Assembly (NCBI RefSeq): GCF_002288325.1 | Contig: NZ_CP016780.1 | Coordinates: 62,001 to 126,000 of the forward strand | Reading direction: 5' to 3' | Length of the DNA stretch: 64,000 bases | DNA from: Candidatus Planktophila lacus | GTDB lineage: Bacteria; Actinomycetota; Actinomycetes; Nanopelagicales; Nanopelagicaceae | Shown here: one piece after another, positions 4,829 to 11,522 of the stretch | Layout: each line of letters starts with the position of its first letter | Position numbering within the stretch: position 1 is the stretch's first letter | Program-made: the position numbers and the translations under genes | The notes under the pieces: generated by a model | Seen by the model: only the letters and a program-made list of their open reading frames with translations | The model's database searches: none | Told to the model about the DNA's origin: nothing

Positions 4829-5608
4829 ATGCGACTCTCTGTATTAAAAAAGATTGTAATTAAATCATTTTCATGGTTGCGCCCAGCGATGAGTGGACAA
4901 TTCATTAAATTGCATCAGCAAAGTATTGGATTCGGTTACGACTCAGGTATTGAAAATGAAGTTAAAGTTTTTTCGAATGAGCTTTCTAAATTAATGATTG
5001 AAGAAATAATAATTCTTGATGTTGGGGCCAATTCAGGAAATTGGACCCGAAACTTAAAAAATTATTTTCCTGATTCTGAAATCCATGCTTTTGAACCTTC
5101 AAAATCAACTTACGCCGTTCTTCTGGCTTCAACTAATAATTTAGAGAAGGTTTCTACCTATAATTTTGGCTTTGGAGATCTGGAACAATCGCAACAGCTT
5201 TTCTACGAGCAGGAGAAAAGCGGTATGGCAAGTTTATACAAAAGAGATTTAAGCCATATCTCAATAGACTTTAACAAGTTCGAAGAAGTTCATATTAAGC
5301 GTTTGGATAACTGGTTGACTGAATCAAAGGTTCGCGCAAATGTATTGAAAATAGATGTAGAAGGTCATGAGCTTGCCGTGCTGAAAGGTCTTGGGAGCTA
5401 CTTAACCGAATTCAAAATGATCCAGTTTGAATTCGGTGGCACAGATATTGATTCCCGAACCTTCTTTCAAGACTTTTGGAACTTTTTTAAAGATACAAAT
5501 TTCAGACTTTATAGATTAAGTCCACGTGGAAAAATCCCTATCCTGACGTACAAGGAGACGGACGAAGTCTTTAGTTTCACTACCTACTTCGCGATTGCTC
5601 AAAGATAG
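4829..5608 (+). CDS. FkbM family SAM-dependent methyltransferase
   Basis: A 259-residue protein with the FkbM methyltransferase pattern: LDVGANSGNWT around residues 62-71 (SAM-binding motif I), HAFEPSKSTY (motif II acidic region) and NVLKIDVEGHELAVLKG near residue 174, the family's DVEGHE signature. It probably O-methylates a sugar of the surface glycan. AAAGGAA precedes ATG 4829 at a good distance. AT-rich composition resembles that of 579-2473 rather than the helicase or sigma-factor genes, which suggests a shared origin by transfer. It is a distant relative of the partial gene at the left edge. Confidence 0.85.
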   Translation: MRLSVLKKIVIKSFSWLRPAMSGQFIKLHQQSIGFGYDSGIENEVKVFSNELSKLMIEEIIILDVGANSGNWTRNLKNYFPDSEIHAFEPSKSTYAVLLASTNNLEKVSTYNFGFGDLEQSQQLFYEQEKSGMASLYKRDLSHISIDFNKFEEVHIKRLDNWLTESKVRANVLKIDVEGHELAVLKGLGSYLTEFKMIQFEFGGTDIDSRTFFQDFWNFFKDTNFRLYRLSPRGKIPILTYKETDEVFSFTTYFAIAQR

Positions 5609-5723
5609 TAGTTTCATTTTCGCAAACTGTTCTGCGCTGAAGTTTGGCGCAACCGAACACCTGGATAATTGACATCCTTTGAGGGTGGGCAGTTGAGTGA
5701 TTTCCCCTCTGGATGCTGCTAAG

Positions 5724-5739
5724 TTGCCATATTTGGCAA
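5724..5739. promoter_or_regulatory. Palindrome upstream of sigma factor gene (possible operator)
   Basis: TTGCCA-TATT-TGGCAA, a perfect 6+6 inverted repeat with a 4-base centre, lies about 115 bases upstream of the sigma factor start. The size fits a dimeric regulator site, but no regulator can be named. Confidence 0.3.
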
Positions 5740-5852
5740 AATGTCCGTTTTGTTCCTTCCCCGCTACATCTGGGGCTAGGATTCGTAGAAGGTTATAGAG
5801 GCACCGACGGGTGTCGCTGAAGTACAAAACCGGTTAAGAAGGAAGTCCCAAA

Positions 5853-7220
5853 GTGGCATTTAAGAAGTCTGCAGCCTCTGCAGGTCCTCGCGTGTGGACC
5901 GTCGCAGAGCTCGGTGCTTTCTACACAGAGCACCGTTCAGAGCTTCTCGCCCACGCTAATCGCGTCCTAAAGGATTCCGCTAAGGCTGAAGAAATCACCC
6001 AAGATGCCTTGATTAAGTTCATGCTTGCAGCACCAGAGCTTGAATCAAATGATCATGCACTTTCTTATTTGCACCGCACTATCGAAAACCTCTGCATCGA
6101 CTTGTTCCGCCTAGAAGGTCGTCGTCCTAACCTTGTGGTTATCGACGATGCCCAGGCTGAAGTTGAAGCTGCATGGCAGGTAGACGGTGATCACTCACAA
6201 GCACTTTCTGCTGCTGAAGATGCAGCAATTATTCGTCAAGCACTTGCACTTCTTTCTCCTGCAGAGCGCGCAGCGCTTGTTATGTGGGAAATGGAAGGCC
6301 GTTCAACCGAGGAAATCGCAGCAGAACTTGGCATCAAGGAATCTGCAGTGCGCCACACTGTTTCTCGCGCTCGCGCTTCCCTTCGCCGTGTTCTTTCAGA
6401 ACTCGTTATCGACGAAGAGCGTGGCCTAACAGCGCTCGACATGCTTTCTACTACCTATAAGAAGGCAGCAGAGCTTGCTCAGAAATCTTCGAAGGTGGCT
6501 CTTTCTCTTCTTCTAGTTGTGACAGCTTTCCTTGGCTTTAACTCAATGACCGGCCGCGAAGGAGTAACAATTACTCCTTCTGCTCCATCAGAGATCGCAT
6601 CAGGCCCAGTTGCTGGATCATCTGATGCCGTTGCTCCAGTTGAGGCAAGCACCCCAACACCTTCTATTTCAATGCCAGCTAAGAAGTCCAGCACCATGGT
6701 CTCTGGCGTGGCAATCAAGTCAGCCAAGCTTGTTTTCCCAGGCTTGGACGAAAAAGGCATCCCAACAGGTTTCACTGTTGCGAGCCAAGACGGCACCCCA
6801 GGCACCATCCGCGTTAATAAAAATACGCCGGTTGCCACTGAAGCCGGAACAGAGTTGACCACCCAGGCCATAACAGCGGTCGGTGGCCCAAATGTGATGA
6901 TCTCTCAGAGCATCACAGTGGATGGCAACGGCACCACTTACCTCGTAAATGGGGTTTCAGCTGGTGTTGCAGGAAGCTGGACCCCTCTCAACCTAGGCGC
7001 CACAACTGCCGATTTTGAGCGGATGTCCAACGGGCAGTACCTTGTGACCGTTAGAATTCTCGTAGTCTCAACCCCAACTTCAGAGTTCTTTATCCCCGTG
7101 GGCAACCGCGGCTTCGACCTAACAGGTCCTATAAAGTCGATTACAACTCGACTAGTTCTCAATGCAGGCAAGACACAAATTTTGGCTCAGTCAGTACTTG
7201 TGACTGAAGACAAGAAGTAA
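5853..7220 (+). CDS. ECF-type sigma factor fused to a transmembrane and extracytoplasmic domain
   Basis: A 455-residue protein. Residues about 20-90 form sigma-70 region 2 (AEEITQDALIKFM, then LSYLHRTIENLCIDLFR), and about 128-180 form region 4 with a helix-turn-helix (SPAERAALVMWEMEGRSTEEI, then ESAVRHTVSRARASL). There is no region 3, as in ECF sigma factors. Residues 213-230 form one hydrophobic helix, followed by a Pro/Ser/Thr-rich linker and about 170 residues with exported-domain character. A membrane-tethered sigma factor with an outside domain is the simplest reading. GTG 5853 is preceded by AAGGAAG. The next gene, 200 bases downstream, encodes a major-looking surface protein, the most obvious candidate target. 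The C-terminal domain is not recognised. Confidence 0.82.
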   Translation: MAFKKSAASAGPRVWTVAELGAFYTEHRSELLAHANRVLKDSAKAEEITQDALIKFMLAAPELESNDHALSYLHRTIENLCIDLFRLEGRRPNLVVIDDAQAEVEAAWQVDGDHSQALSAAEDAAIIRQALALLSPAERAALVMWEMEGRSTEEIAAELGIKESAVRHTVSRARASLRRVLSELVIDEERGLTALDMLSTTYKKAAELAQKSSKVALSLLLVVTAFLGFNSMTGREGVTITPSAPSEIASGPVAGSSDAVAPVEASTPTPSISMPAKKSSTMVSGVAIKSAKLVFPGLDEKGIPTGFTVASQDGTPGTIRVNKNTPVATEAGTELTTQAITAVGGPNVMISQSITVDGNGTTYLVNGVSAGVAGSWTPLNLGATTADFERMSNGQYLVTVRILVVSTPTSEFFIPVGNRGFDLTGPIKSITTRLVLNAGKTQILAQSVLVTEDKK

Positions 7221-7420
7221 AAGGTAAAACGGTGAAGCACGTGAAATTTCACCTAAATAGATTTCTCCGTCGCGTCCGGATACACGGCGGGGAATTTGAT
7301 ACATCAGCACGTGCGATGTATCGAGTGAGTGAAAAAGGCTCTCTCATGTCATATGAGAAGGCATTTAACACTCGAGCCGACCTACGGATCGTCCGTGGTT
7401 CGACTATCGAAAGGAAACAA
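7221..7420 (+). promoter_or_regulatory. Structured leader between sigma factor and surface protein genes
   Basis: A 200-base stretch with several hairpin-forming elements: a perfect 12-base palindrome GTGAAATTTCAC at 7241-7252, a near-perfect 21-base inverted repeat at 7300-7320 (TACATC and GATGTA flanking GCACGTGC), and TCTCAT/ATGAGA at 7342-7358 with a 5-base loop. The frame of the surface-protein gene stays open back to a GTG at 7232. However, the strong ribosome-binding site (AAAGGAAAC) and the signal peptide both start at 7421, so I read this as an untranslated leader. Confidence 0.5.
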
Positions 7421-9703
7421 ATGTCTACAAAGACAACTTTCAAGCGCGTAGCGCTTGTAACTGTTGCTGCTTTGAGCTTCGGTACGATGGCATCAGTATC
7501 GCCAGCGTCTGCAGCTGGAGCAACAGTTCTTACAACAGTGAAAGTTTCTGACGCAACCGTTTACGGTTATGTTGGCGAAACTTTGACAGCAAAAGTATCG
7601 GTTACTGCAGTTGGTGCAACAGGTGGCGCACTATCAGCAGATGATTCAATTACTTTGACCGCTGCAATCACAAGCATTTCAGGTTCAGCAGTCGCTGCCC
7701 TTACAACCACAGGTGCAACACAATCTGTTGATTCTGTTAACGCAGATTCATCTACAGGAACAAGCCAGCTTGCGGTCGACAAGTTCCGTTTTGTTGAATC
7801 TACAACAGCCGGAATCTTGCTTTCTGAAGGATTTGCACCATCTGTAAAAACTTCTGTTAACTTGAGTGGACTTGATACGAAGACTGCATTCACTGCGGCT
7901 TCACTTCATTTCCGCCCATCAACAACAGGTACCTACAAAATCACAGTTACCCCAAGTAACCGCCAAGCTGGTGGATCAGTTACTCACACAGCAGGCGTAA
8001 TCACATTCGTGGTTCTCTCAGCTGGTGCAGCTACATCTGATGGTGCCCTAGTTACTTCACGTGGCACTGCAAACGGTGTTGCTGGTGCAGGTAACTACAA
8101 CCAGGTCAAGGTGACTGGTCAATCTGGCGCAACAGCGCTAGGAATGCGTGTTGTTGTAACTGGTTCAGTAATTGAAGCAGCAGCAGCAAACGGAACACTT
8201 TCAACCGATAAGACCACATTGACAATTCCTGGTGTTACATCAGGCGCGATCAACCAAGGTCTAATCAACGTTCTAACACCAACAGTAGGAACTGTCACAG
8301 TAAATACTTACCGCGAAACAGCAGTAGGTACTTACTCAGCTACAGCTGATTCAACTGTAACAATCACAGTTCGTGCAGCTGCACTTACAGGTACAGCAAC
8401 AACTAGCACGACATACATGGCAGAAGGAGAAGCAACAGAACCTGATGAAGATACTGATGCTGCTGTTGTTGCTCTAACAACTGTGCCTTCAATCTCAAAC
8501 ACAGCTGATCTAACCGCTGCAGTGGCTCGTATTCAGGTAATTCAATACGATGCTCTCGAAGCAGTAGCTTCTTCATCAAAGACCTTGGCTGTTACAGCTG
8601 AAGTCACTGGTGCAGGACGTGTCGGTTCAACTGCTGATGCTGTAGGTGCGACTTCAGTTATCGCACACCCAGCAGGTACTTCAACAACTACTCAGGCTGC
8701 AACTAGAGACTTCTACGTCTTCGCAGACGGTCGTTCAGGTGAAGCCACAATCACAATCAAGGTTGGCGGAGTCACAACGTTGACTCGTAAGGTTGCGTTC
8801 TTCGGAGCAGCAACACAGTTGAAGCTAAAGGCCGCTACAGCAGCAGCTCCAAACCCTTCAAAGTCATACCTAGCAGTCGGCGGAACAATGACAATCTCTG
8901 TAGTTCCTTATGACGCTAATAACGTCAAGTTGTCTACAGTGGCTGTTACCGCAACAAGCGAAACAACAACAATCGCAACAGTAGTTGCTTCAGCTACAGC
9001 TGGAGACGTAACTGTTACAGGTGTTGCTGTCGGTAAGACAAACATCACTATCAAGAATTCAACTCTTGGTACTTTGGTTGTTCCAGTTGAAGTTACAAAG
9101 TCAACAGGTGTTGCAAAGCTAACACTTGACAAGACTTCAGCTCAGCCAGGCGAGAAGGTCACATGGACTATCACAGCTACAGACGTCAACGGACGCCCAG
9201 TTGCTGATGGAACAAGCATTGCGCTCTTCTCATCTATCACAGCAAACATGTCAGTTACAGGACTTCCAACAGGTAGCGAAACGCTTACCGGTGGAATTTC
9301 AACAGGTTCATTCTTTGCACCTACATCAGGTTCAGGAACACTGACAATCACTGCTACACAAGGCACAGCACATGACACATACATCGCAGGCCTAAAGGCT
9401 GCAACAGCTGCTGGTACTACATACACAGCTGTTAAGGATGTTGTGGAAATGTCTGTTGTTAACGCAGCAGTAGATGCAGCAGCAGCTGCAGCAGAAGAAG
9501 CAACAGCAGCAGCAAATGATGCTACTGATGCAGCTCTATCTGCAGCAGAGGCAGCAGAGGCAGCAACAGCTATGGCACAAGAGGCCGTAGATGCAGTTGC
9601 TGAGCTTTCAGCATCAGTCACTAAGTTGATCTCAGCACTTCGTGCACAGATCACTACATTGACTAACCTCGTAGTAAAGATCCAGAAGAAGGTAAAGGCT
9701 TAA
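7421..9703 (+). CDS. Large exported Thr/Ala-rich surface protein with Ig-like segments and Ala-rich C-terminal coil
   Basis: A 760-residue protein. ATG 7421 follows AAAGGAAAC and begins a clear Sec signal peptide (KTTFKR, hydrophobic core, cleavage near ASA-AGA around residue 31). The body is Thr/Ser/Ala/Val-rich beta-type sequence, including bacterial Ig-like stretches such as KLTLDKTSAQPGEKVTWTIT followed by DVNGRPVADGTSI. The last 80 or so residues are an Ala/Glu-rich heptad-like helix ending in basic residues (VKIQKKVKA). No LPXTG motif or transmembrane anchor is visible, so attachment may be through the C-terminal coil. The composition, leader and strong terminator suggest an abundant S-layer-like protein. 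The family is not identified. Confidence 0.75.
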   Translation: MSTKTTFKRVALVTVAALSFGTMASVSPASAAGATVLTTVKVSDATVYGYVGETLTAKVSVTAVGATGGALSADDSITLTAAITSISGSAVAALTTTGATQSVDSVNADSSTGTSQLAVDKFRFVESTTAGILLSEGFAPSVKTSVNLSGLDTKTAFTAASLHFRPSTTGTYKITVTPSNRQAGGSVTHTAGVITFVVLSAGAATSDGALVTSRGTANGVAGAGNYNQVKVTGQSGATALGMRVVVTGSVIEAAAANGTLSTDKTTLTIPGVTSGAINQGLINVLTPTVGTVTVNTYRETAVGTYSATADSTVTITVRAAALTGTATTSTTYMAEGEATEPDEDTDAAVVALTTVPSISNTADLTAAVARIQVIQYDALEAVASSSKTLAVTAEVTGAGRVGSTADAVGATSVIAHPAGTSTTTQAATRDFYVFADGRSGEATITIKVGGVTTLTRKVAFFGAATQLKLKAATAAAPNPSKSYLAVGGTMTISVVPYDANNVKLSTVAVTATSETTTIATVVASATAGDVTVTGVAVGKTNITIKNSTLGTLVVPVEVTKSTGVAKLTLDKTSAQPGEKVTWTITATDVNGRPVADGTSIALFSSITANMSVTGLPTGSETLTGGISTGSFFAPTSGSGTLTITATQGTAHDTYIAGLKAATAAGTTYTAVKDVVEMSVVNAAVDAAAAAAEEATAAANDATDAALSAAEAAEAATAMAQEAVDAVAELSASVTKLISALRAQITTLTNLVVKIQKKVKA

Positions 9704-9731
9704 TTAGCCTTGATCTTCTAAAGATCTAGAA

Positions 9732-9777
9732 CCGAAACCCGGCTCCCTCTTCGGAGGGGCCGGGTTTCGGCCTTTCT
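9732..9777 (+). terminator. Strong intrinsic terminator after surface protein gene
   Basis: A 17-bp GC-rich stem (CCGAAACCCGGC and CCCTC pairing with GAGGG and GCCGGGTTTCGG, with one bulged T) is closed by a UUCG tetraloop and followed by CCTTTCT. It is the strongest terminator in the window. Confidence 0.92.
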
Positions 9778-9814
9778 AGGCAAGTTTGTGGGTAATAAAT
9801 AGTTAAGTAGAAAG

Positions 9815-9820
9815 TAAGAT
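9815..9820 (+). promoter_or_regulatory. Putative leaderless -10 box (TAAGAT) of O-antigen ligase gene
   Basis: TAAGAT lies 7 bases before ATG 9828, directly after the preceding terminator, with no Shine-Dalgarno sequence between. This position predicts transcription starting at or next to the start codon. Confidence 0.5.
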
Positions 9821-9827
9821 TGGGGTT

Positions 9828-11522
9828 ATGTTGAAATTAGAAATTGAGAAACCAGTTGCTCGCCTATTAGCCTTTGGCGCGCCATTCATTTCGATATTCC
9901 TTCTGATCGACCAAGTATCTGATCCGGTCAACGTCACGAAGATGGCCGCCTTATCCGTAGTGGCATTTGGTCTGGCTGCGGCCGTGTTGGTGAAGTCTCC
10001 GCGAATGCTCTGGTCTGATGCAAAGTTACAGGTAATCGCTGCGCTCGGTTTCATAGTTTTCTCGATCAGCGCCGTATTAAATAGTGCATCTCCGTTGGGG
10101 CAAAACTTTTATGGAACCTACGGTAGAAATACTGGATTTCTAACTTATTTTTCTTTAACGCTAGTTTTTCTAGCGACGCTAGTTCTGCGCCGCGCTGAAT
10201 CATTTAGAAATATCTTGTACGGGCTACTCGCTGCAGGATTGATAAATGTTGCATACGGCGCTTGGACGATTACTTTCGGCGATTTTGTCTCCTGGAACAA
10301 TCCATATAACCGAATCCTTGGAACATTTGGAAATCCAAACTTTATCGGGGCATTCTTAGGAATTTTTGCATCAGTTCTGGTTGCATATCTATTAACCCCT
10401 GGTACCAAGATTGCGGTACGAATAGCTGGAATCGTGATTCTGATTGCCACATTCCTTGAAATTAAATCCTCACTTGCGGTTCAGGGCATAGTCGTGTCAG
10501 GTGGCGGAATTGCGCTAGTTATTTTTTATTATTTAAGATATAAATTTACAAAGTGGACGGTTCCATTTATCTACCTAGGATCCGTTGCCGTAGTGGGCAT
10601 TTTTGCACTGATGGGTGCACTTCAAAAAGGACCACTAACCAGCCTTGTGTATAAGACTTCTGTCTCTTTGCGCGGTGAATATTGGCAAGCCGGAATCAAC
10701 ATGGGTAATTCACATCCGCTAACGGGTATTGGCATGGATTCATACGGTGATTGGTATCGCAGATCACGGGATGCCCAAGCTTTGATATTACCTGGACCAA
10801 ATACGACCACGAACGCTGCGCATAACGTATTCCTTGATGTCTTTGCGTATGGCGGATACCCGCTGTTTATCGCATACATGGCTTTTTTTGTCATGAGTTT
10901 GATTGCCGCGATTAAGTTGACGTTTATTCAAAAGGAATTTAACTTCGTAAAGGTTGGACTAATTGTTGCTTGGATTTGTTATCAAGTTCAGGCTCTGATT
11001 AGTATCAATCAAATTGGACTCGCTGTTTGGGGTTGGGTCACAAGTGGCGCACTCATTGCCTATGAATTCTCGACTCGAATCGCCCAAAGTGAGTCAACTT
11101 CTAAAGTGAGCGCTCGGAAAACTGTCAAGAATAATCCTTTAATTTCACCACAGATGTTGATTGGGCTAGGCATGGTCGTGGGAATAATTATCGCAATTCC
11201 ACCGCTAAGTGGAGACATCAAATGGAGGGAAGCGCTCAAAGCACAAAACGCCGATTTGGTGACTGTTGCCCTCACTCCTTCTTATATGAGTCCGTCTAGC
11301 AGCAATTTGTATATAAACGCTACCCAAATTTTTGAACAAAATAATCTTCCAGCTATGGCGTACAAATACGGCAAGCTGAATACCGAATATAACCCTAATT
11401 ATTTCGATGCATGGCGTCTTTTATACGCTTTGAAAAACGCCACCCCCGAAGATCGAAAGCTAGCAAAAGAGAAGATGATTGAACTTGATCCACTAAATGA
11501 GGAATGGAAGAAACTTCCTTAA
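9828..11522 (+). CDS. O-antigen ligase / polymerase (Wzy-WaaL) family membrane protein
   Basis: A 564-residue polytopic membrane protein with ten or more hydrophobic helices. The long loop around residues 281-340 (GEYWQAGINMGNSHPLTGIGMDSYG, then HNVFLDVFAYGG) has the Wzy_C/O-antigen-ligase pattern, with HN and a preceding Arg typical of the catalytic loop. The last 100 residues form a soluble tail with a TPR-like end (ATPEDRKLAKEKMIELDP). It probably polymerises or transfers lipid-linked glycan outside the membrane. Its stop shares one base with the start of the next gene (TAATG), implying translational coupling with the nucleotide-sugar dehydrogenase. Confidence 0.85.
   Translation: MLKLEIEKPVARLLAFGAPFISIFLLIDQVSDPVNVTKMAALSVVAFGLAAAVLVKSPRMLWSDAKLQVIAALGFIVFSISAVLNSASPLGQNFYGTYGRNTGFLTYFSLTLVFLATLVLRRAESFRNILYGLLAAGLINVAYGAWTITFGDFVSWNNPYNRILGTFGNPNFIGAFLGIFASVLVAYLLTPGTKIAVRIAGIVILIATFLEIKSSLAVQGIVVSGGGIALVIFYYLRYKFTKWTVPFIYLGSVAVVGIFALMGALQKGPLTSLVYKTSVSLRGEYWQAGINMGNSHPLTGIGMDSYGDWYRRSRDAQALILPGPNTTTNAAHNVFLDVFAYGGYPLFIAYMAFFVMSLIAAIKLTFIQKEFNFVKVGLIVAWICYQVQALISINQIGLAVWGWVTSGALIAYEFSTRIAQSESTSKVSARKTVKNNPLISPQMLIGLGMVVGIIIAIPPLSGDIKWREALKAQNADLVTVALTPSYMSPSSSNLYINATQIFEQNNLPAMAYKYGKLNTEYNPNYFDAWRLLYALKNATPEDRKLAKEKMIELDPLNEEWKKLP

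Follow-up and report, generated by a model that had tools for sequence, protein, structure and literature searches.

A putatively autoregulated coat-protein cassette in Nanopelagicaceae: a membrane-fused extracytoplasmic function sigma factor, a structured leader RNA and an exported immunoglobulin-like protein

The window analysed here, a stretch of 64,000 nucleotides of Candidatus Planktophila lacus (contig NZ_CP016780.1, positions 62,001 to 126,000 of the forward strand), carries a sigma factor gene and a gene for an exported, coat-like protein that are separated by a structured RNA (Table 1). The account of these parts that we hold with rather more confidence than doubt is that they form a self-contained, autoregulated coat cassette of the Nanopelagicaceae, in which an extracytoplasmic function (ECF) sigma factor would read the coat through its own outer, sensor-like domain, with no anti-sigma factor. 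Bacteria of the acI group are among the most abundant in fresh water, and the host is an acI-type actinobacterium of this family whose streamlined, single-contig genome of 1.38 Mb holds four genes with sigma region 2. Its nearest named relative at the locus is Candidatus Planktophila lacus MMS-21-148 (locus L082), with a sigma factor 98% identical to that of the window; genome G011, marked as the same species, carries the same sigma match.

Table 1. Features of the cassette and its downstream neighbour (positions are those of the window)
Feature	Position	Strand	Basis
TGTCC direct repeat, 9 bases apart, in A-type cassettes; possible activator site or extended promoter	5742..5756	+	kept in A-type relatives
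Predicted -35 element CGCTACAT	5762..5769	+	76 upstream regions aligned; inferred
Predicted -10 element ATTCGTAG	5781..5788	+	upstream alignment
Hairpin at predicted transcript 5' end, loop GACG	5798..5815	+	stem count over 76 upstream regions
Membrane-anchored ECF sigma gene	5853..7220	+	ORF, Pfam, hydropathy, alignment, structure model
Parts of the sigma gene	core 5853-6407; juxtamembrane 6408-6488; membrane helix 6489-6551; stalk 6564-6707; outer beta domain 6714-7217	+	
Leader hairpin P1, loop UCCGGAUA	7262..7295	+	10 pairs, 10 changed on both sides
Leader hairpin P2, loop ACGU	7296..7324	+	8 outer and 2 inner pairs; 8/10 changed on both sides
Variable hairpin region P3, missing from some relatives	7325..7374	+	window fold, alignment; outside covariation count
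Leader hairpin P4, immediately 5' of the ribosome-binding site	7378..7403	+	9 pairs: 7 double-changed, 2 invariant
Coat ribosome-binding site GAAAGGA	7409..7415	+	near-invariant in leader alignment A1
Coat gene: signal peptide, Ig-like domains, 78-residue C-terminal helix (9464-9697)	7421..9703	+	ORF, Pfam, structure model, Foldseek
Terminator-like hairpin	9732..9770	+	stem scan after coat stop
Wzy_C (O-antigen ligase type) membrane protein gene	9828..11522	+	PF04932 E 1.9e-11

The distribution of the parts was followed in 201 genomes of the order, 17 of them single-contig (those without the sigma gene are multi-contig drafts), and their sequences were compared across 78 loci of named relatives, where 52 loci supply 53 sigma genes with 700 nt or more past the stop, the set testable for what follows. 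In all 53, the next long open reading frame (ORF) encodes an exported coat-like protein, and thus the pairing on whose conservation in relatives the preliminary description of this DNA had staked its reading has held. The sigma gene is present in every one of the 17 single-contig genomes; many draft metagenome-assembled genomes (MAGs) lack it, the locus seemingly having been lost in assembly or binning. Sigma gene and leader RNA occur together in 70 genomes, the sigma gene alone in 14, the leader alone in two and neither in 115 (Fisher p 4e-37, relatedness ignored); for sigma gene and coat match the corresponding counts are 54, 30, 12 and 105 (p 4e-16, relatedness again ignored), and the missing coat match in 30 of the 84 sigma genomes would be expected, since the middle of the coat protein is not conserved. 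Seven of the 12 genomes with a coat match and no sigma gene were looked at closely: in G151, G121 and G035 the contig stops about 30 to 180 bases 5' of the start, in G072, G096 and G128 only gene ends at contig edges are present, and in G117 (locus L152, G117:C8) a coat-like gene has 6 kb of upstream DNA without sigma gene or leader motif, which is either a real exception or a paralogue and counts against the pairing. A strong leader match was found in 72 genomes; judged by eye, in 68 it follows the sigma match, sharing contig and strand with it. It stands 153-677 bases behind the end of a shortened sigma match in G050, G109, G091 and G024, on another contig in G028 and G124, and has no sigma match to accompany it in G121 and G151. 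Among the 14 genomes with a sigma match and no leader, G018 and G020 truly lack the RNA, and in the other 12 the match is a fragment (a 33-residue piece in G083) or runs to the contig end. The whole cassette, from promoter block to coat gene, is duplicated in tandem in G097 (L154, G097:C24:5000-20000), and loci L153 and L155 hold further coat-like paralogues with the same signal peptide and ribosome-binding site and without the leader hairpin motifs.

The sigma factor itself has region 2 at residues 23-90 (Pfam E 1.8e-12) and region 4 at 126-177 (E 1.2e-13), and the Pfam r2, r4_2 and TIGR02937 models all score above their cut-offs, as in an ECF sigma factor; PF04539 (region 3) reaches only E 0.029, below its cut-off, leaving regions 2 and 4 alone, without 1.1 or 3. 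A conserved juxtamembrane stretch (186-212) leads into one membrane helix (about 213-233), the single strong hydropathy segment of the protein, where the best 19-residue window begins at 215. Lysines lie beside this helix on the sigma side, and the positive-inside rule places a positively charged flank on the cytoplasmic side; the C-terminus is therefore predicted to be outside, a topology that is likewise favoured by the rest of the anatomy, a variable stalk rich in proline, serine and threonine (238-285) followed by a conserved beta domain of about 170 residues (288-455). No zf-HC2 match (Pfam) and no Cys or His within 180-212 betray an anti-sigma domain between region 4 and the helix, and no FecR-type domain is among the Pfam and NCBIfam matches listed for the sigma factor. 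Nor does an anti-sigma gene adjoin it: the coat gene is next in the 53 testable cases, and an FkbM methyltransferase gene lies upstream in the window. Each of the two other small sigma genes of the genome is directly followed by a small gene, with a weak, sub-threshold zf-HC2 match (E 0.02) behind one of them and no Pfam match behind the other. Sigma regions 2 and 4 and a single membrane helix, as claimed in the preliminary description, are thereby borne out, as is the lack of an anti-sigma partner that it supposed, and its placement of the C-terminal part outside the membrane is favoured as a prediction.

What, then, is the outer domain? AlphaFold2, given 64 relatives, returned a confident all-beta fold (mean pLDDT, predicted local distance difference test, 91; predicted TM-score, pTM, 0.86). 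The part beyond the membrane helix, which the preliminary description had already failed to recognise, finds no convincing counterpart among solved structures. Residues 231-455 match nothing in Pfam or NCBIfam, none of 616 Foldseek rows reaches E 0.001, a VIA fold search gave at best Z 4.3 (cystatin/NTF2-like and LpqH rows; not used), and a sequence search of the Protein Data Bank gave a single match at E 0.83. Pfam run on 64 members of the domain named eight families, at best at E 0.0027 and none common to more than six members, and a profile of the domain (aligned without L104) matched only the window's own copy among 396 genomes across the phylum. That the domain might be a copy of a coat domain was rejected by hhalign (probability 0.5%).

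Upstream of the sigma gene, alignment of 76 regions revealed two kinds of conserved block. Type A consists of TGTCCG-N-TTTGTCC followed by CTACA or GACAA and, after about 15 bases, by (T)TCGTAG; type B of ACAACATTT and, after about 14 bases, GTGTCTTA. The TGTCC direct repeat is confined to type A. In both types a hairpin closing a GACG loop comes next, its stem having at least three pairs in 69 of the 76 (36 different stems, a raw count) and, in a narrower stretch, at least four pairs in 55. From their conservation we infer that the blocks are the -35 and -10 elements of an ECF promoter. With up to two mismatches, ATGTCCGTTTTGTCC occurs at four genomic sites (none in the backward control), and only 5742-5756 precedes a CTACA/TTCGTAG block; motif searches of the genome, crude as they were, found no wider regulon.

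The preliminary description had expected the coat gene to have a promoter of its own upstream of 7421, and in this it was not upheld. No sign of one was found: the conserved RNA begins within a few to about 40 bases of the sigma stop, and a sigma-70 scan of 5600-9900, which does not cover ECF promoters, returned none against 3.9 expected from shuffles. A promoter hidden in the 3' end of the sigma gene is unlikely, because third codon positions vary there, judging by eye from the alignment. The conserved promoter-like block stands before the sigma gene and none stands before the coat gene, and therefore the latter is probably controlled through co-transcription, sigma and coat being carried on one transcript. 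That transcript would end at the hairpin behind the coat gene; of the 46 complete coat genes, 44 have a stem of at least nine pairs within 140 nt past the stop, whereas one of 46 shuffled sequences does, although a pattern scan did not list the hairpin at 9732-9770.

The two genes are 122-200 nt apart in relatives, and the RNA between them is conserved and structured. In the window it folds at -69.4 kcal/mol (z -5.05; 0 of 200 shuffles equal it), and RNAalifold on 59 sequences (alignment A1, from which seven loci whose DNA ends too soon past the sigma stop were left out, as was L113, where a leader was later found) gave three hairpins with 29 pairs, 25 of which show double changes. In the named structure, pairing holds in 97.7% of 1693 cells, and 407 are double-change cells, compared with 126.6 in shuffles (0 of 500 as many); sliding the partners by one to three columns leaves at most 69. 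The constant features are the loops UCCGGAUA (P1) and ACGU (P2) and an unpaired GAAAGGA ribosome-binding site. A covariance model of P1-P2 (R1, 68 positions) matched 68 of 71 sources, behind the sigma gene, and found nothing in L086, L102 and L104; it is present in 73 of the 201 genomes (E <=0.01). Seven weaker matches (E 5e-5 to 0.006) comprise six antisense over the same hairpins and one elsewhere in L125, and several such occur across the 201 genomes. Rfam gave six matches with E <=1 in 5000-10200, none of them inside 7221-7420. Judged from these alignments, the leader is a conserved RNA without a known family, and the structured leader that had been ascribed to the surface-protein gene is well founded.

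Could this stretch instead be translated, as an N-terminal extension or a leader peptide? The frame is open through much of it in many relatives, the peptides are alike, and in the window a longer ORF of 823 residues from GTG 7232 merely runs through the RNA leader. We find this hardly credible: 16 of 58 relatives have an in-frame stop, the paired positions change in a compensatory way, a signal that is lost once the partner is slid, and the extension would sit ahead of a good signal peptide.

The coat gene proper starts at ATG 7421 and encodes 760 residues with a signal peptide, as had been described for the exported neighbour of the sigma factor. Its model (mean pLDDT 68.7, pTM 0.45) shows beta domains and a C-terminal helix (682-759, pLDDT about 85-93). 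Foldseek returned 195 rows with E <=0.001, including FdeC and the surface-layer (S-layer) proteins SbsC, EA1 and SbsB; the rows also include immunoglobulin (Ig) chains of the nuclear pore and of complement, and the search therefore speaks for a chain of Ig type and not specifically for an S-layer. We took an exported chain of Ig-like domains as the mark of an S-layer-like protein, and the product has both features. Big_1 was found in 7 of 41 coat relatives and is absent from the window's own protein (alignment A3 retains 41 of 46 proteins, L098, L104, L111, L123 and L129 having been dropped). Between the window and L082, the sigma core and the outer domain are each 98% identical and the last 85 residues of the coat protein 89%, as against 27% for its middle; by these comparisons the coat is hypervariable within the species and the control parts are not. 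The codon adaptation index (CAI) is 0.70-0.72 for the coat gene and 0.70 for the sigma core, compared with 0.54-0.77 in ribosomal-region genes, 0.57 in a nearby DEAD-box helicase gene and 0.37-0.44 in three adjacent surface-sugar genes, so that coat and sigma core have the codon use of highly expressed genes. This lends support to the description of the product as a major-looking surface protein, its abundance and surface location being predictions. Within the sigma gene, codon adaptation drops from the core to the outer domain (0.46), which fits a mosaic history.

The cassette appears to be assembled from modules. Sigma cores fall into two clades, each fully supported, with a mean identity of 49% between them, and promoter type changes once on the core tree as opposed to five times on the outer-domain tree (L071, L075 and L091 were labelled A from reading the upstream alignment; L062 and L096 were unlabelled in this count and labelled by core type for clade identities and the test below). 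The outer domains of L086, L134 and L089, which have A-type cores, are up to 84% identical to those of L099 and L122, which have B-type cores, and the respective cores share 44-48%. An approximately unbiased (AU) test rejects the grouping of all B-type outer domains in a single clade (57 rows, p 3.9e-5; 7.6e-14 without L095 and L096), the groups having been named after the tree was seen and eight long or gappy rows dropped (L104, L097, L100, L113, L098, L091, L092, L110). Most cases of an A core with a B sensor are MAG contigs, several of them from different assemblies, and single chimeras are possible among them. The juxtamembrane stretch and membrane helix are 72-73% identical between the two core types, compared with 49% for the core, as would be expected of parts that transmit the signal. 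From the conflict between the core and sensor trees it follows that the joint lies at the membrane segment, with promoter and core moving apart from sensor, leader and coat. Among the relatives as a whole, several (L064, L071, L083, L096, L100 and others) belong to MAG records titled Bifidobacterium breve or Streptomyces griseus, apparently mislabelled acI genomes.

If the sensor travels with the coat, which part of the coat might it read? Across 44 loci, identity in the outer domain correlates with identity in the last 85 residues of the coat protein (r 0.65, or 0.58 as a partial correlation controlling for the core; none of 1000 permutations reached as much), and 45 loci with another aligner gave 0.73 and 0.67. 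By comparison, core identity and the coat C-terminus give r 0.15, and outer domain and variable coat middle a partial correlation of 0.15. Taken segment by segment along the sigma factor, correlation with the coat C-terminus runs at 0.05-0.24 as far as residue 180, at 0.28-0.48 across the membrane segment and stalk, and at 0.44-0.70 within the outer domain. This pattern fits a contact between sensor and coat helix, to the extent that sequence covariation can indicate one. It is not what is predicted if the cassette is autoregulated in response to something other than its coat, be it a glycan of the wall or capsule, ions, or a signal from phages or grazers, an alternative that we consider unlikely though by no means negligible. 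The latter draws some strength from the resemblance of stalk and beta domain to ECF52, whose outer part is annotated as carbohydrate-binding (PMC5826349), and from the neighbourhood: surface-sugar genes flank the cassette in the window, and 24 of the 30 proteins scanned from behind the coat gene (the first 30 of the list) match Wzy_C, upstream genes being diverse. The Wzy_C product may glycosylate the Ser/Thr-rich coat protein itself. No carbohydrate-binding family of Pfam matches the outer domain in any of the 64 members, which counts against glycan sensing; its fold matches were weak.

One lineage does without the beta domain. In G020, G018 and L104, the sigma factor has 318-326 residues and a short tail of different sequence in its place, and the type-A promoter, the coat gene and leader hairpin P4 are kept; the R1 model is not significant there (best E 0.082), and by eye a CACGTG hairpin stays, whereas P1 has disappeared. 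The loss or replacement of the sensor thus went together with that of P1, probably as a single event. That a short-tailed lineage keeps the cassette would suit a sigma factor that is never released and acts at the membrane, where it would bring together transcription, translation and export of the coat, the outer domain being an anchor or a marker of the export site. The juxtamembrane stretch and helix, conserved like the core and common to both core types, point the same way. We nonetheless judge such a mode of action improbable, as a conserved folded domain of about 170 residues would be a costly anchor and known membrane-fused ECF sigma factors are described in a review as being released by proteolysis (IutY, PMC8999054).

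Under the account that we prefer, that of a coat-reading, autoregulated cassette, transcription from the ECF-type promoter (5762-5788) would yield one transcript consisting of the 5' hairpin, the sigma gene, the structured RNA, the coat gene and the terminator, and the sigma factor itself most likely recognises that promoter. Positive autoregulation needs a brake, and since no other regulator is encoded in the cassette, the brake should lie in the outer part of the sigma factor; the coat is the most economical candidate for what applies it. The stalked beta domain would read the state of the coat, probably by touching its C-terminal helix. When coat is missing, the tether would be cut by regulated intramembrane proteolysis or be reshaped, freeing the sigma core to make more sigma and coat mRNA, and a complete coat would switch production off, a separate anti-sigma factor being unnecessary. 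By analogy with IutY and ECF52, release is probably proteolytic. The probable role of the leader RNA is to stabilise the coat portion of the message or to process it, with the result that coat output would greatly exceed that of the sigma factor. The one-protein sensor-sigma proposed in the preliminary description is thus retained as regards the union of sigma factor, helix and outer domain in one polypeptide and its pairing with the coat gene, and abandoned as regards a separate coat promoter; sensing and release would operate as just outlined. It is conceivable, and we put this stronger version forward only tentatively, that the cassette is a one-protein coat homeostat, with an outer domain that gauges completeness via the coat C-terminal helix, a self-induced operon, a mobile module of sensor, leader and coat set upon two unrelated-looking sigma/promoter pairs, and a leader that represents a new RNA class setting the coat-to-sigma ratio.

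Several observations weigh against the coat-reading account. It is built on sequence and predicted structure. CTACA-N12-17-TTCGTAG has two genomic sites, one of them here, and two in the backward control, so that the count is not significant, and linkage alone also predicts that promoter and core are inherited together, since they are adjacent. The sensor-coat correlation was computed from genes of the locus alone, with the species tree as a possible confounder, and the leader correlates with the outer domain and the coat C-terminus nearly as well (0.62 and 0.59); block inheritance therefore explains part of it. The middle of the coat, at 27% identity within the species, cannot be what the sensor reads, and the outer domain is dispensable in the short-tailed lineage, which keeps the gene pair without it. 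Finally, the one M50 (site-2) protease of the genome is not specific to carriers of the cassette, M50 being found in 14 of 14 control genomes.

What is the significance of such an arrangement? Little is understood of how bacteria tune coat-protein synthesis to their surface, and the cassette suggests very compact coat control in a family of very small lake bacteria, where a streamlined genome keeps one of its four sigma region-2 genes beside a coat gene. With two sigma cores, two promoter types and one kind of sensor, it is a natural domain swap, and it adds an RNA family that Rfam 15 does not contain and an outer domain to which no solved structure is convincingly related. Coats that are diverse within the species under control parts that stay constant bear on escape from phages and grazers, and the predictions of the model can be put to direct test.

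Membrane-fused ECF sigma factors are already a known kind. A literature search that covered few subscription journals returned no description of the cassette and nothing on Nanopelagicales with an S-layer, and a word search of PMC11039613 found mention of neither sigma nor S-layer. Among the closest known designs is SCO4117 (ECF52) of Streptomyces coelicolor, likewise an actinobacterial ECF sigma factor that continues into a membrane segment, a stalk rich in proline and an outer domain, for which autoregulation has been suggested and proteolytic release is expected (PMC5826349). It has, however, a zinc-finger anti-sigma domain ahead of the membrane segment and a carbohydrate-binding module, neither of which was found in the cassette sigma factor, and it is described as pleiotropic, in contrast to a sigma factor partnered with one coat gene. 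IutY (ECF243) of Pseudomonas putida, released by Prc and RseP according to a review, also joins sigma factor and membrane regulator in one protein (PMC8999054), but what is fused there is an anti-sigma factor that reads a receptor of the outer membrane, where the cassette has one helix and an unrelated beta domain. The coat protein shares a chain of Ig-like domains with SbsC, SbsB and EA1 (Foldseek E 4.5e-9 to 2.3e-8), and differs from them in its low TM-scores (0.16-0.20 by query) and its own long C-terminal helix. S-layer genes are described as having strong promoters and long-lived mRNAs (PMC8056022); compared with the stabilising leaders of such mRNAs, the cassette has a conserved multi-hairpin RNA, of presumably similar use, between two cistrons. 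New in the cassette are the absence of an anti-sigma domain, the fixed coat-gene partner, a structured RNA lying between the two genes, a novel outer domain and the exchange of sigma/promoter modules.

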